A model generated the notes under the pieces. It searched no databases. It was not told where the DNA came from and saw nothing but the letters and a program-made list of their open reading frames with translations. A stretch of DNA of 34,308 nt from a bacterium (GTDB lineage Bacteria > Electryoneota > B3-LCP): assembly GCA_018812585.1 (NCBI GenBank), contig JAHJDJ010000087.1:1-34308 (forward strand). Direction: 5' to 3'. How positions within the stretch are numbered: position 1 is the first letter of the stretch; each line of letters starts with the position of its first letter. The position numbers were made by a program, and so were the translations under genes. Positions 2,978-10,114 of the stretch are shown here, in pieces.

Positions 2978-4696
2978 TTAATCTACAGTGCCTTCTATGA
3001 TCATCGAAGCATCACCGTTAGAACTCTCTACACTGATTGTGATCGCTGCCATGACTGCCGGATCTGTTTCTTCGGTATCGTCATCGTAGATTACAAAACT
3101 GAAATTGGTCCATGATACTGGATCTCTGGTATCTGGCAGTGTGAAATTAACGTCGCCTAATAAGCCGCCTGCAGTGGCTGATACTTCGATCTTTGTATCA
3201 TGCGCTAATGGGTATCCATTTTGATCCATAACCCTGTAATTGAAGGTTTTCGAATTGAACTGGTTAACCTCAAAATAGGGTGTATCGAGCAGGGCAATCT
3301 GTGTAATTCCTGAGAACAACACCTCGGTGGTTGCCGTTAGAATCTGACCTCCTTCTCCGACTGTTTGAGCTGAGATCGTTCCGAAAGGATAGGAAGCTGG
3401 AGGTATCGGTGGGCCGGAGAACAGGAGTACACTGGCAAAACCCGACGAATCAGTGGTCGCTGACCCCTGGATAATGCCTGCATCTGAGCTGTAATATACG
3501 GCAGTACCCATTGGCACTGGATTAGCGAAGACGTCACCGACCATAGCGATCATGCTATCTGTTCTGCCGAAAAAGTTGTAGCCTGGGAAGTTAATATAGC
3601 GTGGATATACGCCGAAATGAGTCAAGTCCGGCAATCCCGAATGAATTGTGATCGGTATTGGCGTTGATACGATATCTGGATCGCTGGCAAGAGAAGCCTT
3701 TATCTGAACCGCTCCTGAGATAGTGCCACTATTCAACGTCGTGTGCACCTGTCCTAAGACATCGGTTGTGTCCATATCGGGGAAGAGGTATTCACCACCG
3801 CCAGGTCCGCCGAGAATTTCAAAGTCGACTCCATAAGGTGAACTCCCTGTAATTGGAGATCCGGTGGCATCTTTTATGACAAAGTGGATCGTGCTCGACT
3901 CGTTGGCGCCTGTTCCTTTCACAGCAACTGAATCATATTCAGCTTCCAGGAATTGAATCGAATACGGAGGTCCTGTCTCGTAAATTAGAATTTCAGTAAG
4001 AACGGTAAAAGACGATGTAGTCCCAAATTGTGCCTTGATGATAACCTGGCCTGCGATGGTTCCGGCATGGAAAGTCGTATTGACTCGTCCATCGTGGTCT
4101 GTGACGTCACTTTCGGGATACAGAAAGGCGCCGCCACCAGGCGTTTCCAGAAATTCAAACAGGATTTGTGCAGTATGCAGCGAGTCGACGGGGCGATTGG
4201 AAGCATCCCAGACTTCACAGATTATTGAAGCGGTGCTGTTGCTGCTGAAACCATAAACTCCAATGGTGTCCGGCTCGATAGAAATCAGGACGATCTGTTC
4301 ACCAGGTCCTGAACCTGTGTATCCAGTATCAGTCACGGTAGAATCGAGGTAACGTTCTAACGTAACTGTGGGAATGTTGGTCGTCTCTCCCGCCTGGATG
4401 ACTGTAAACAGCCCGTACGCATAGTACCCCTCTTTATAGATTTCCAGCTCCACAGTCTCCTGTTCGCCTTTTGGCAAAGCGATGGCGAGATCATACTGGC
4501 CTGTTGAGTCGGTTAACGCTGTCTCGATATGAGTGATGGTGCGGACAAAGGCGTCAGGCGCCGGCGCCAGATTTGACGCATATTTGACCGTCCCCTGGAT
4601 GTGAGCCCAATCCTGTCCCGCTCCCAAGTCAGTTGATTGTTCTTCGCAACCTGCGAAGAGCAGAGCGATAACGAGCAGTAGTGACGTCTTTTTCAT
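2978..4696 (-). CDS. Lipoprotein with carboxypeptidase-regulatory-like and bacterial Ig-like repeats
   Basis: The start is set at the second Met (4696) because MKKTSLLLVIALLFAGC is a classic lipoprotein signal with lipobox FAGC and lipidated Cys17; an upstream in-frame TTG (4708) would add only four residues. Glu follows the Cys, so retention in the inner membrane by the +2 Asp rule is not expected. After a short linker a CarboxypepD_reg-like fold (about 33-115) is followed by at least three Ig-like units of the Big_1/invasin type (about 136-240, 244-353, 356-465). The first two share the pattern ETPGGG.FL.P...T...G.V.TT...GTI.G...IKA. Such modules usually form rods at the cell surface. It sits inside the pilus operon between DUF4900 and the PilT-like motor, suggesting a surface-exposed pilus accessory, adhesin or anchoring factor. 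No close ribosome site is visible at the ATG; an AAGGAG lies about 30 bases upstream. Exact function is unknown. Confidence 0.8.
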   Translation of the reverse strand: MKKTSLLLVIALLFAGCEEQSTDLGAGQDWAHIQGTVKYASNLAPAPDAFVRTITHIETALTDSTGQYDLAIALPKGEQETVELEIYKEGYYAYGLFTVIQAGETTNIPTVTLERYLDSTVTDTGYTGSGPGEQIVLISIEPDTIGVYGFSSNSTASIICEVWDASNRPVDSLHTAQILFEFLETPGGGAFLYPESDVTDHDGRVNTTFHAGTIAGQVIIKAQFGTTSSFTVLTEILIYETGPPYSIQFLEAEYDSVAVKGTGANESSTIHFVIKDATGSPITGSSPYGVDFEILGGPGGGEYLFPDMDTTDVLGQVHTTLNSGTISGAVQIKASLASDPDIVSTPIPITIHSGLPDLTHFGVYPRYINFPGYNFFGRTDSMIAMVGDVFANPVPMGTAVYYSSDAGIIQGSATTDSSGFASVLLFSGPPIPPASYPFGTISAQTVGEGGQILTATTEVLFSGITQIALLDTPYFEVNQFNSKTFNYRVMDQNGYPLAHDTKIEVSATAGGLLGDVNFTLPDTRDPVSWTNFSFVIYDDDTEETDPAVMAAITISVESSNGDASMIIEGTVD

Positions 4697-4809
4697 GGTC
4701 CGTCTCAAAGCTTAGTGAGGTGTATCTCCTTAATGGAGAACACGAGTGTTTGCAGCGTGAGCTGGAGATAATACAAAATGCGGGAGCGCTGCCTGCTGAT
4801 TTTTAAAAT

Positions 4810-4960
4810 CCCAGAGACCGGTGAGACACCGCGGGGGTCGGGGCGGAACGGTGAAACATGCGGTCAATTAGTCATCCTATCCAATCAAGAGCATCCGAAC
4901 CAGTCAGTGCATCCGTATCAAGCGTTGTTCATACGTCATGTTGACCGCCCGGTCTCCGGG
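4810..4960 (-). ncRNA. Candidate structured RNA element upstream of the Ig-repeat lipoprotein
   Basis: This lies in the 355-base gap between DUF4900 (ends 5052) and the lipoprotein start (4696), which contains no credible gene. Bases 4941-4960 form one continuous arm complementary to two separated arms, 4860-4867 (8 of 8) and 4810-4821 (11 of 12). The intervening 4827-4858 can form its own hairpin (CACCG with CGGTG). The single mismatch in the outer stem is A-C on the plus strand but a G-U wobble on the minus strand, so the minus-strand RNA, co-directional with the operon, folds better. The inner 4868-4940 includes a CGTAT/ATACG hairpin and three imperfect ~19-base units based on GGATG. No match to the c-di-GMP-I, SRP, tmRNA or RNase P cores could be recognised. 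It could be a cis-regulatory leader, an operon-internal small RNA or a processing site. Confidence 0.45.
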
Positions 4961-5051
4961 GAACTCATCTATCTAAGAAGCCTCCAATGCAGCAGAGACC
5001 TCCAGTTATTTATTCGTCAGATTTGCCTTAATTCTTAACTGGCGAATTAAT

Positions 5052-6254
5052 CTATTCGTACCAGGAAATGATTGACGTGCGCGACAGAATCGGGTAAAAG
5101 GGCGGCGCCCTCTTATAGAAGCGGGCATCATATCTATAATTCTTCGAATAGCCCGATCTAATGGTAGTGTACCAGGCGGTCCCTACTGGACCTCTTTTCT
5201 CCTGGATTATACCGCCGATGACAGCCAGTGTGCCTCGCGGACCACCTTGATTATATTTCTCCACATAAAAGCTTTTGTGTAACGCCATAATTGAGGCGTA
5301 AATAGTACAGTTGGTCATATTTGCAGTCGTAGCTGAAACTACGACGTCATGCATTGCTATCAAGCCCAATATATCATCTGAAGTTGGATCGACCAGGGGA
5401 TCAGCCGCATAGAGAATATCATCGTCGATCAAGATGTCTCCATCGGCAAGAACCGTGGCTTGACCATCCAGAGTGCCTTTGACATGGATGTCTTTTGAGT
5501 TATCTGTGGCAATGACACCGTTCGTGGCGGAGAGCACGGTATTCCCGCTGGAATCCAGCGTGGCGCCAGTGTACACTTCCCAGTTGAAGGTGCCATCGCT
5601 AATAAACTCGACGTAAGTTTCGCCCGAAAACAACATTCCAGCGCTGGCAGCTTTCCCTTGGATTACTGAGAGATCAACCGGCAGATCGAGCTGTGCACTG
5701 CCGAATTGTGTCCCACCTATGAACTGAGGACTTCCAGTTCCCACCCAACCCGCGCCCACGGAGGATACTAAGCCATAAAAGACTGGATTTCCGGAAATAT
5801 GGAACTTACCATTCGTATGAATGGGCCCTCTAAGCGTATCTCCCGTGATAAAAAAAATGGGTGGTTCTGTATTACTGAAGTAAGCGAACTCAGAAAAGGG
5901 TGTGCGCCGCACTTCAACAACAGCAGTTCTTGATTCACCACAGATGTTTCCGGTCGCGGTTATACGCAAATGATCCGACGCGAGTGTCGTGTCCACAGTT
6001 GCATCTACGATGGTGACATTCCCATGACCATCCATCAAAGACAAGTTGGTGAATCCTTCGTCCCAACCATAGTTAGAACGGATTTCATTTAAACTGATAT
6101 TCACCATGCTGTTGGTAATGTTTCTCGCCGTGGCTTCAAGGTATTGGTCATTACTGAGTTCCTGTGCATCACCGCTGAGACGGTTATGATTCAGGCGCAG
6201 TATGCCGGCTACAATGGTAAAGCCGACGACAAGGATGAGTGTGAAGCGTCCCAT
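5052..6254 (-). CDS. DUF4900-type (PilX-like) pilus-associated protein
   Basis: A 400-residue protein with an N-terminal hydrophobic helix (residues 4-20) directly after Met-Gly, then a mostly beta-rich exported region. Patterns such as GDTLRGPIHTNGKFHISG, DGQATVLADGDILIDDDI and GLIAMHDVVV are typical of the DUF4900 family, whose members occur in pilus and secretion loci of Deinococcus and FCB bacteria and resemble PilX-like tip or minor components. The Met-Gly plus hydrophobic helix layout matches the other pilin-like proteins of this operon, suggesting it could be inserted into the fibre or act as a tip subunit; its size is much larger than a minor pilin. The start ATG has a strong AAGGAGGG ribosome site eight bases upstream. 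It follows the minor pilin with an 87-base gap. Assignment to DUF4900 is from memory of the family pattern. Confidence 0.65.
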   Translation of the reverse strand: MGRFTLILVVGFTIVAGILRLNHNRLSGDAQELSNDQYLEATARNITNSMVNISLNEIRSNYGWDEGFTNLSLMDGHGNVTIVDATVDTTLASDHLRITATGNICGESRTAVVEVRRTPFSEFAYFSNTEPPIFFITGDTLRGPIHTNGKFHISGNPVFYGLVSSVGAGWVGTGSPQFIGGTQFGSAQLDLPVDLSVIQGKAASAGMLFSGETYVEFISDGTFNWEVYTGATLDSSGNTVLSATNGVIATDNSKDIHVKGTLDGQATVLADGDILIDDDILYAADPLVDPTSDDILGLIAMHDVVVSATTANMTNCTIYASIMALHKSFYVEKYNQGGPRGTLAVIGGIIQEKRGPVGTAWYTTIRSGYSKNYRYDARFYKRAPPFYPILSRTSIISWYE

Positions 6255-8317: not shown

Positions 8318-10114
8318 CTAATCCTCCGCAGTGGCAAACGCAATCTCTTCGCAATTAGCGACGCCCTCTTTGATGCGTTCGCGACCCGAGGCTCTTAATG
8401 TCAACATTTTATTCTTTACCGCTTCCGTGCGCAGGGCATCTTCATCAACTTCGTCTCCCGCATCTAATATTAATCGTCGTATTTCCCGGGTAAAAAACAA
8501 CGCTTCGTGAATGGCGGCGCGTCCCTTATAACCATTTGTGCAATGCTCACAACCAACCGCTTTATGGAAAAGAGTCGTTTCAATCTCTTCAGCAACGAAC
8601 CCCAGACTTAATGGCACCTCAAGATCCAAATCAGTATCAACTTCCTTACACTTCGGACAGAGTGTCCGAATCAACCTCTGCGCAACGATTATATTGATGG
8701 CGTAAGCGATCAGGAACGGCTCCACACCCATCTTGAACAGACGAGATACAGCGGACGGAGCATCGTTGGTATGCAGAGTAGAGAAGGTCAAGTGACCTGT
8801 GTTGGCCAGCTTGATTGCGATCTCAGCGGTCTCTTTATCACGCATTTCACCCACCATGACGATATCCGGGTCGTGACGCAGAATAGCTCTGATGGCTCCT
8901 TCAAAACCGAGGGTATGGCTGATTTTTATCTGCCGAGCGCCCTTGATGATGTATTCAACCGGATCTTCAACCGTCAGACAGTTCACTTCCGATGATAATA
9001 CCTGGTACAGCGCAGCGACCAGGGTTGTCGATTTACCAGAACCAGTCGGACCGGTCAGAATCACCATCCCCTGTGGTTTGGTAATGGCTTTCCGGAAATC
9101 CTTCTTCGCCTGGGGTTGCAATCCCAATTTATCCAAATCTGTGATGATTTTACGATCATCGAGAACACGAATAACGATGGATTCTAACTTGCGCTTGAAC
9201 TCGGTGGACACTATTGGGATGATTGATACTCTAAAACGGATCATGGTTCCGTCGATGTTGCGCTGGATATATCCGTCCTGAGCTGTCTCACGTTCAAATC
9301 GGTCTACGTTTCTTGATCGATCTTTAACCACAGCCGCCATGGCTTCTGGTTTAATTAATTCCTGAGTATGCCATAATTGCAACTTGCCATCGATGCGGAA
9401 GTAGAAGTCCGTCTTATTACCTGCTTGAGGCATGACGTGAATGTCAGAGACGCCTCTGCGAACAGCTTCTACCAGACAGCCTTCGACCAGGTTAGTCAAT
9501 AGAGATTGGTTGATTTCCTGATCTAAAGCCTCTTCATCGATGCCGTCTTCGCCGCCGCCATCTTCTATGGATTCGAAAGAGCCGGCTGATTCTTCTATGA
9601 TCTGCAGGAATTCATTCGTGGTTGGATAAACGCTCTCAATCCACTTTTTGATATTTTCCCGCTTGGCGTAAGCTAATTCAATATGCCTGAACCGCAGTTT
9701 CTTCGCAAGAACCATAATATCGCGGTTCGTAGGATCATCTGTCAAAACCAGCAAAGTATCCGGTCGATTCTCATCGATGCGAAACGGTAAGACATTACTT
9801 TGAAAGAGCTCTACTCTCTCTTTTTTACTGACACTATCATAAAGCGACTTGATGAATTGACCTTTTTTATCAGTTATTTCAAACTTTTCAAGGTCAACTT
9901 CCGGAAAAGCGTAGATCCGGGCTAATTCGAGATAAATCTCATGGCGTTCACAATTGAGATCCTCGACTAAGATTTCACCTAATTTCCGACGCGACCCTTC
10001 CTCAGCCTGCTGTAGAAGAATGGCTTTGTCCAATATATCCTGATCGATAACCCCGCGCTGGACCAGTAATTCGCCGGTACGCGTTATCTTTCTTATTTCG
10101 TCCTTTACAGCCAT
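8318..10114 (-). CDS. pilB: PilB/GspE-family pilus extension ATPase
   Basis: A 598-residue assembly motor. An N-terminal MshEN/GspE-N-like region (about 10-160; LLVQRGVIDQDILDKAI and KLGEILVE) precedes an acidic linker (180-200) and the ATPase core. Visible motifs are Walker A GPTGSGKS (355-362), Asp box EDPVEY (383-388), Walker B region DPDIVMVGEMRD (415-426), His box HLTFSTLHT (441-449) and a zinc tetracysteine site CPKC (486-489) and CEHC (522-525). All catalytic residues look intact, in contrast to the PilT-like partner. It drives polymerisation by acting on PilC. The gene starts five bases after pilC and has no strong ribosome site, suggesting translational coupling. The MshEN-like domain can bind c-di-GMP in some homologues; whether it does here cannot be judged by eye. 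Confidence 0.92.
   Translation of the reverse strand: MAVKDEIRKITRTGELLVQRGVIDQDILDKAILLQQAEEGSRRKLGEILVEDLNCERHEIYLELARIYAFPEVDLEKFEITDKKGQFIKSLYDSVSKKERVELFQSNVLPFRIDENRPDTLLVLTDDPTNRDIMVLAKKLRFRHIELAYAKRENIKKWIESVYPTTNEFLQIIEESAGSFESIEDGGGEDGIDEEALDQEINQSLLTNLVEGCLVEAVRRGVSDIHVMPQAGNKTDFYFRIDGKLQLWHTQELIKPEAMAAVVKDRSRNVDRFERETAQDGYIQRNIDGTMIRFRVSIIPIVSTEFKRKLESIVIRVLDDRKIITDLDKLGLQPQAKKDFRKAITKPQGMVILTGPTGSGKSTTLVAALYQVLSSEVNCLTVEDPVEYIIKGARQIKISHTLGFEGAIRAILRHDPDIVMVGEMRDKETAEIAIKLANTGHLTFSTLHTNDAPSAVSRLFKMGVEPFLIAYAINIIVAQRLIRTLCPKCKEVDTDLDLEVPLSLGFVAEEIETTLFHKAVGCEHCTNGYKGRAAIHEALFFTREIRRLILDAGDEVDEDALRTEAVKNKMLTLRASGRERIKEGVANCEEIAFATAED

Follow-up and report, generated by a model that had tools for sequence, protein, structure and literature searches.

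The type IV pilus operon analyzed here raises the question of what is carried by a gap of 355 nt between two of its genes, and of whether the gap affects the genes that follow it. The operon lies on the minus strand of the window (the whole stretch of DNA analyzed, 34,308 nt), which is part of a 3.85 Mb genome distributed over 383 contigs; members of the family with public names are mostly metagenome assemblies of candidate division LCP-89. In operon order, its genes encode a PilC-like protein, a PilB-like protein (MshEN), a response regulator with a cyclic-nucleotide domain, and a DUF4900-like protein, followed by the gap, a Big_1/invasin lipoprotein gene, and a PilT-like ATPase gene. The gap spans positions 4697-5051, between the DUF4900-like gene (5052-6254, minus strand, assigned by Pfam and by relatives) and the lipoprotein gene (2978-4696, minus strand), whose product of 572 aa comprises Big_1/invasin Ig-like domains and a lipobox (LFAGC). 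These limits follow from the conserved lipoprotein start, which is most likely the ATG at 4696 (MKKTSLLLVIALLFAGC) and not the TTG at 4708. The next gene, 1693-2964 on the minus strand, encodes a PilT/PilU-like ATPase (TIGR01420, E 3.7e-94; PF00437), with the TIGR01420 match lying 3 bits under the family cut-off. The PilB-like ATPase (8318-10114) carries an N-terminal MshEN-type domain of a c-di-GMP-binding family, and the pilus may therefore be controlled by c-di-GMP.

The initial annotation had described the gap as devoid of genes and as the site of a three-way-junction RNA transcribed from the minus strand, with no known riboswitch core. Absence of a gene is confirmed: an 86-aa frame on the plus strand has no Pfam match, and protein coding was rejected, as the relatives conserve no stop-free frame across the loop described below, whichever strand is read. 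We consider it practically certain that the gap instead carries a real structured RNA, a three-way junction encoded on the minus strand. The absence of a known riboswitch core was likewise borne out, with no Rfam 15 family reaching its gathering score in the window and none matching positions 4650-5100 up to E = 10. The RNA family is genuinely previously undescribed and lies outside Rfam, although in kind it belongs with either the regulatory leader RNAs or the UTR-derived sRNAs, both of which are known.

Searching relatives at the DNA level returned short matches in three further genera, which correspond to 4815-4853 of the window and in every case lie close to the DUF4900-like gene, and homologous gaps were extracted from four other genera of the family (G001, G003, G004, and G005). 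A scan of 84,980 genomes with the exact loop pattern recovered those copies and one more (L068), and otherwise gave three matches (L062, L065, and L066), which lack the P1-P3 architecture and were rejected as copies. L068 is contig QZKG01000005.1 of an assembly labeled Gaiellales (Actinobacteriota); since it carries an LCP-89-type pilus operon with identical gene order, it is probably misbinned. The DUF4900-like gene is duplicated in tandem, with diverged copies, in G005 (L054) and L068.

Covariance models were built from five copies (R1) and from all six (R2), and the model match in the window copy, itself part of the training set, covers 4809-4961 (66 bits, E 1.3e-11). Of the 39 phylum genomes searched with R1, five contain the RNA, each as a single copy, all from one family and always ahead of the lipoprotein gene, and no copy among 386 genomes beyond the lineage, the latter under a stricter filter by which weak matches may be lost. 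R2 added no copies to those of R1, and the RNA was not found in viral contigs. A borderline match in G018 (27.7 bits, E 0.012-0.036) was rejected as GC-rich and devoid of the loop. One family member, G002, lacks the lipoprotein gene and the RNA alike. In two genomes of another family (f3), a related lipoprotein gene is present in the pilus operon and abuts its neighbors, the gap and the RNA being absent; at L109 and L110 of that family, the related Big_1 lipoprotein gene is located between a short gene and the PilT-like gene, with overlapping ends. The lipoprotein gene therefore exists without the RNA, which is specific to one lineage and restricted to this operon.

The core of the RNA comprises three helices, P1, P2, and P3, with a 17-nt P3 loop of consensus YYYYGCCCCRACCCCCN. 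In minus-strand orientation, P1 pairs positions 4949-4961 (5' strand) with 4809-4821 (3' strand), both supported by covariation. P2 pairs 4941-4948, in which two inner pairs covary and the CGGUC side is nearly invariant, with 4860-4867, and P3 pairs 4849-4853 with 4827-4831 to form a hairpin spanning 4827-4853 overall; the 3' strand of P2 and both strands of P3 were placed with the covariation alignment. The P3 loop (4832-4848, UUCCGCCCCGACCCCCG) is the most conserved segment, with 11 of 17 columns invariant among the six copies, and its sequence conservation far exceeds that of the stems. All six copies possess a P1 of 12-13 bp, a P2 of 6-8 bp at the base of a variable domain, and a P3 with a 17-nt loop. 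The variable domain (4868-4940, about 37-74 nt among the copies) is not conserved, and positions 4697-4808 form the remaining leader to the start codon.

The complementary arms, internal hairpin, and three approximately 19-nt GGATG repeats reported initially are all present. A role for the repeats, located in the variable domain, is not supported, since relatives have GUAUG, GAUG, or nothing in their place. A leader bound by CsrA through GGA motifs in loops was rejected on the same observation, namely that GGATG becomes GUAUG or is lost.

Covariation among homologues, the check set beforehand, was found. In the alignment of six sequences, from which the variable domain and the junctions were trimmed, 94.4% of cells are paired and 9 of 27 pairs are altered on both sides, values reached by none of 500 shuffles; when the pairing partner is displaced by one, two, or three columns, pairing drops to 34-47%. 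In the untrimmed, model-fitted alignment, 94.8% of cells are paired. RNAalifold applied to a structure-free MAFFT alignment of the first five copies recovered P1 and P3, again with nine pairs altered on both sides. The strand follows from the wobble pairs: nine G-U cells occur on the minus strand in the six-copy alignment, as opposed to two A-C cells in the MAFFT/RNAalifold alignment, which places the RNA on the operon strand. Consistent with the initial description, the single mismatch in P1 becomes a G-U pair on the minus strand. The number of sequences behind the covariation, six, is small; nevertheless, synteny, covariation in six divergent copies, and the minus-strand G-U pairs together support the predicted minus-strand three-way junction.

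In the proposed comparison with shuffled sequences, the folding energy of the window copy is unremarkable: z is -0.73 for the whole gap and, for the core, -1.69 on the minus strand and +0.31 on the plus strand. Three other copies reach z values of -3.1 to -5.6 (G001 was left out). The folding energy of the window copy alone is weak evidence, and the structure is proven by comparison.

Three features go beyond the initial annotation: a promoter, the strong conservation of the C-rich loop on P3, and the linkage of the RNA to that promoter rather than to the start codon. The gaps begin with a conserved TnAAG and, about 15-16 nt on, a (G/T)CCGAT or similar motif, as in TTAAAGT-N14-TCCGATAT in relatives; this arrangement resembles the sigma-28 consensus, TAAAGTTT-N11-GCCGATAA (PMC2859248). 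The genome encodes FliA, and flagellin and merR-flagellin genes in these genomes are preceded by TTAAAGT-N13/14-GCCGATA. A PWM was trained on seven sites outside the gap, six of them ahead of flagellin or merR-flagellin genes and one unassigned to a gene. Its best site in the window gap is a candidate sigma-28 (FliA)-type promoter at 5011-5039 on the minus strand (GTTAAGA-N14-GACGAATA), preceded by the stop codon of the DUF4900-like gene; in all six gaps, the best site is located 12-13 nt past the upstream stop codon. Tail probabilities per position, calibrated by scoring the two strands of 800 kb of G003 and G004 sequence, amount to 6e-7 for G003, 2e-6 for G004, 2e-4 for G005, 5e-4 for G001, and 9e-4 for L068. 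The window's own copy of the promoter is degenerate, with a tail probability of 8.6e-3 and a score of -2.5, under the shuffle mean. Accordingly graded, the fit to the sigma-28 consensus is strong in G003 and G004, moderate in G001, G005, and L068, and weak in the window copy. The position of the promoter is conserved, and sigma-28 is the putative factor that uses it.

The predicted transcription start precedes P1 by 40-50 nt in all six copies, whereas the distance from P1 to the start codon varies between 38 and 143 nt; the RNA thus appears tied to the promoter and not to the start codon. No terminator shared by the six copies was found after the RNA, and the transcript therefore most likely reads into the lipoprotein gene. 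Intrinsic-terminator attenuation was rejected, because a hairpin with a U-run on the operon strand occurs in L068 only, where it overlaps P1. Judging from these sequence comparisons, the RNA probably leads a transcript of the sigma-28 type.

The strong P1 helix of 12-13 bp within a long operon could also be a rigid barrier that lets the operon mRNA decay at different rates on its two sides; such a processing or stabilizing element would, however, need neither a conserved 17-nt loop nor an adjacent promoter at fixed spacing, and we regard it as very improbable. Somewhat less improbable, and still unlikely, is a riboswitch or protein-binding leader that acts on translation of the lipoprotein or on termination. 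Such an element would fit the compactness of the junction and the presence of conserved unpaired residues in what is a 5' leader, but the copies share neither a terminator nor an arm sequestering the ribosome-binding site, the distance to the start codon varies between 38 and 143 nt, and no Rfam riboswitch matches up to E = 10. The known c-di-GMP-I (GEMM) riboswitches are three-way-junction leaders ahead of motility and pilus genes and resemble the window RNA in this respect. In contrast to them, the window RNA concentrates its conserved residues in the apical C-rich loop and not in the junction, a distribution that also argues against the ligand- or protein-binding reading, and it shows no covariance-model match: RF01051 gave no match in 4650-5100 and none in the 39 phylum genomes, with the control genomes likewise silent.

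That the C-rich loop is the most conserved part suggests that it acts by base pairing. The candidate partner, proposed from complementarity and promoter position, is the G-rich 5' end of the predicted transcript itself (4997-5006, minus strand, ACUGGAGGUC). Among 13-nt leader segments, the one at the very 5' terminus pairs best with the loop in five of the six copies; the contact fails in G004, and flagellin leaders from similar promoters pair only weakly with the loop. The excess over shuffled leaders is modest, with 3-124 of 200 shuffles equally good, registers differ between species, and there is no column-wise covariation; in the window copy, a local hairpin of -13 kcal/mol competes with the contact. 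As another partner of the loop, the site at which ribosomes would bind the lipoprotein mRNA was rejected, since its pairing clearly exceeds shuffles in two of the six copies only.

The best explanation, to which we assign a probability of about one half, is that the RNA heads a sigma-28-type transcript which starts inside the operon and covers the Ig-like lipoprotein and PilT-like ATPase genes, and that as their 5' leader it provides a loop clamp tied to the flagellar phase. The promoter just past the DUF4900-like gene would start a transcript about 40-50 nt before the P1-P2-P3 junction, which would continue into the lipoprotein gene and then, by gene order, into the PilT-like ATPase gene. P3 would present the conserved C-rich loop, most likely to the G-rich 5' end of the same molecule, and this contact would clamp the RNA over a long range, across P1. 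The clamped mRNA might differ from the open one in stability or output, by which expression of the two downstream genes would be tied to flagellar-phase transcription. A flagellar regulator may thus act on pilus genes through an RNA. The broader proposition, that these copies represent a class of sigma-28-driven leader RNAs in which a C-rich apical loop captures the RNA's own G-rich 5' end and couples the flagellar regulon to pilus genes, is tentative, and we consider it rather unlikely, giving it, like the specific self-clamping mechanism, about one chance in four.

The main rival explanation, itself rather unlikely, makes a different use of the same loop: the RNA could be a sigma-28-driven, 5'-UTR-derived sRNA acting in trans, its C-rich loop serving as the seed for G-rich sites in other mRNAs. 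Conservation of the loop far above that of the stems is expected of a seed, fixed spacing to the promoter and not to the start codon would suit an sRNA, and precedents exist both for C-loop sRNAs driven by alternative sigma factors (PMC5869019) and for sigma-28-dependent UTR-derived sRNAs (PMC10578931). However, the RNA is never found apart from the pilus operon, and neither a conserved terminator nor a processing site was seen in the sequences. The only trans target considered, the ribosome site of merR-flagellin, was rejected: it scored well against 55 initiation regions, but about 9% of 273 regions of G004 paired equally well.

Compared with known systems, the window RNA is closest in function to GsrN and to the E. 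coli sigma-28 sRNAs, which we regard as analogues, claiming neither as a relative. In Caulobacter, the C-rich loop of GsrN pairs with the first nucleotides of katG mRNA; as proposed for the window RNA, GsrN is driven by an alternative sigma factor and has a G-rich transcript 5' end as partner, and, like the window RNA, it has a conserved C-rich loop and by direct sequence search is found in one family only (PMC5869019). GsrN is a short trans-acting sRNA, whereas the window RNA folds as a three-way junction ahead of a protein gene, in its leader, and no terminator was seen. The E. coli sRNAs UhpU, MotR, FliX, and FlgO are sigma-28-dependent and UTR-derived (PMC10578931), and CJnc170 of Campylobacter is FliA-dependent (PMC11187230). 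They share with the window RNA control by a flagellar sigma factor, in its case assigned by computation; the window RNA differs in residing in a type IV pilus operon and has no known relation to them in sequence or structure.

The analysis contributes a family that Rfam does not contain, from an uncultured phylum, with sequences sufficient for a covariance model, and suggests that flagellar and pilus expression may be connected, in a way open to testing, in bacteria that are not yet culturable. Compensatory mutations introduced in a laboratory host could serve to examine the partner of the C-rich loop. If true, the self-clamp would be a self-contained version of the pairing between a C-rich loop and a G-rich 5' end known from trans-acting sRNAs.

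Two minor observations concern neighboring sequences. Positions 4638-4662 of the window form an inverted repeat (arms of 11 nt, loop of 3 nt) where the lipoprotein gene encodes its signal peptide, about 35-60 nt past the start of the gene. In several of these genomes (L112, L116, L118, and L119), a flagellin gene follows a small MerR-like gene; one promoter of the sigma-28 type serves the pair, and the ribosome site reads GGGG(G)U.
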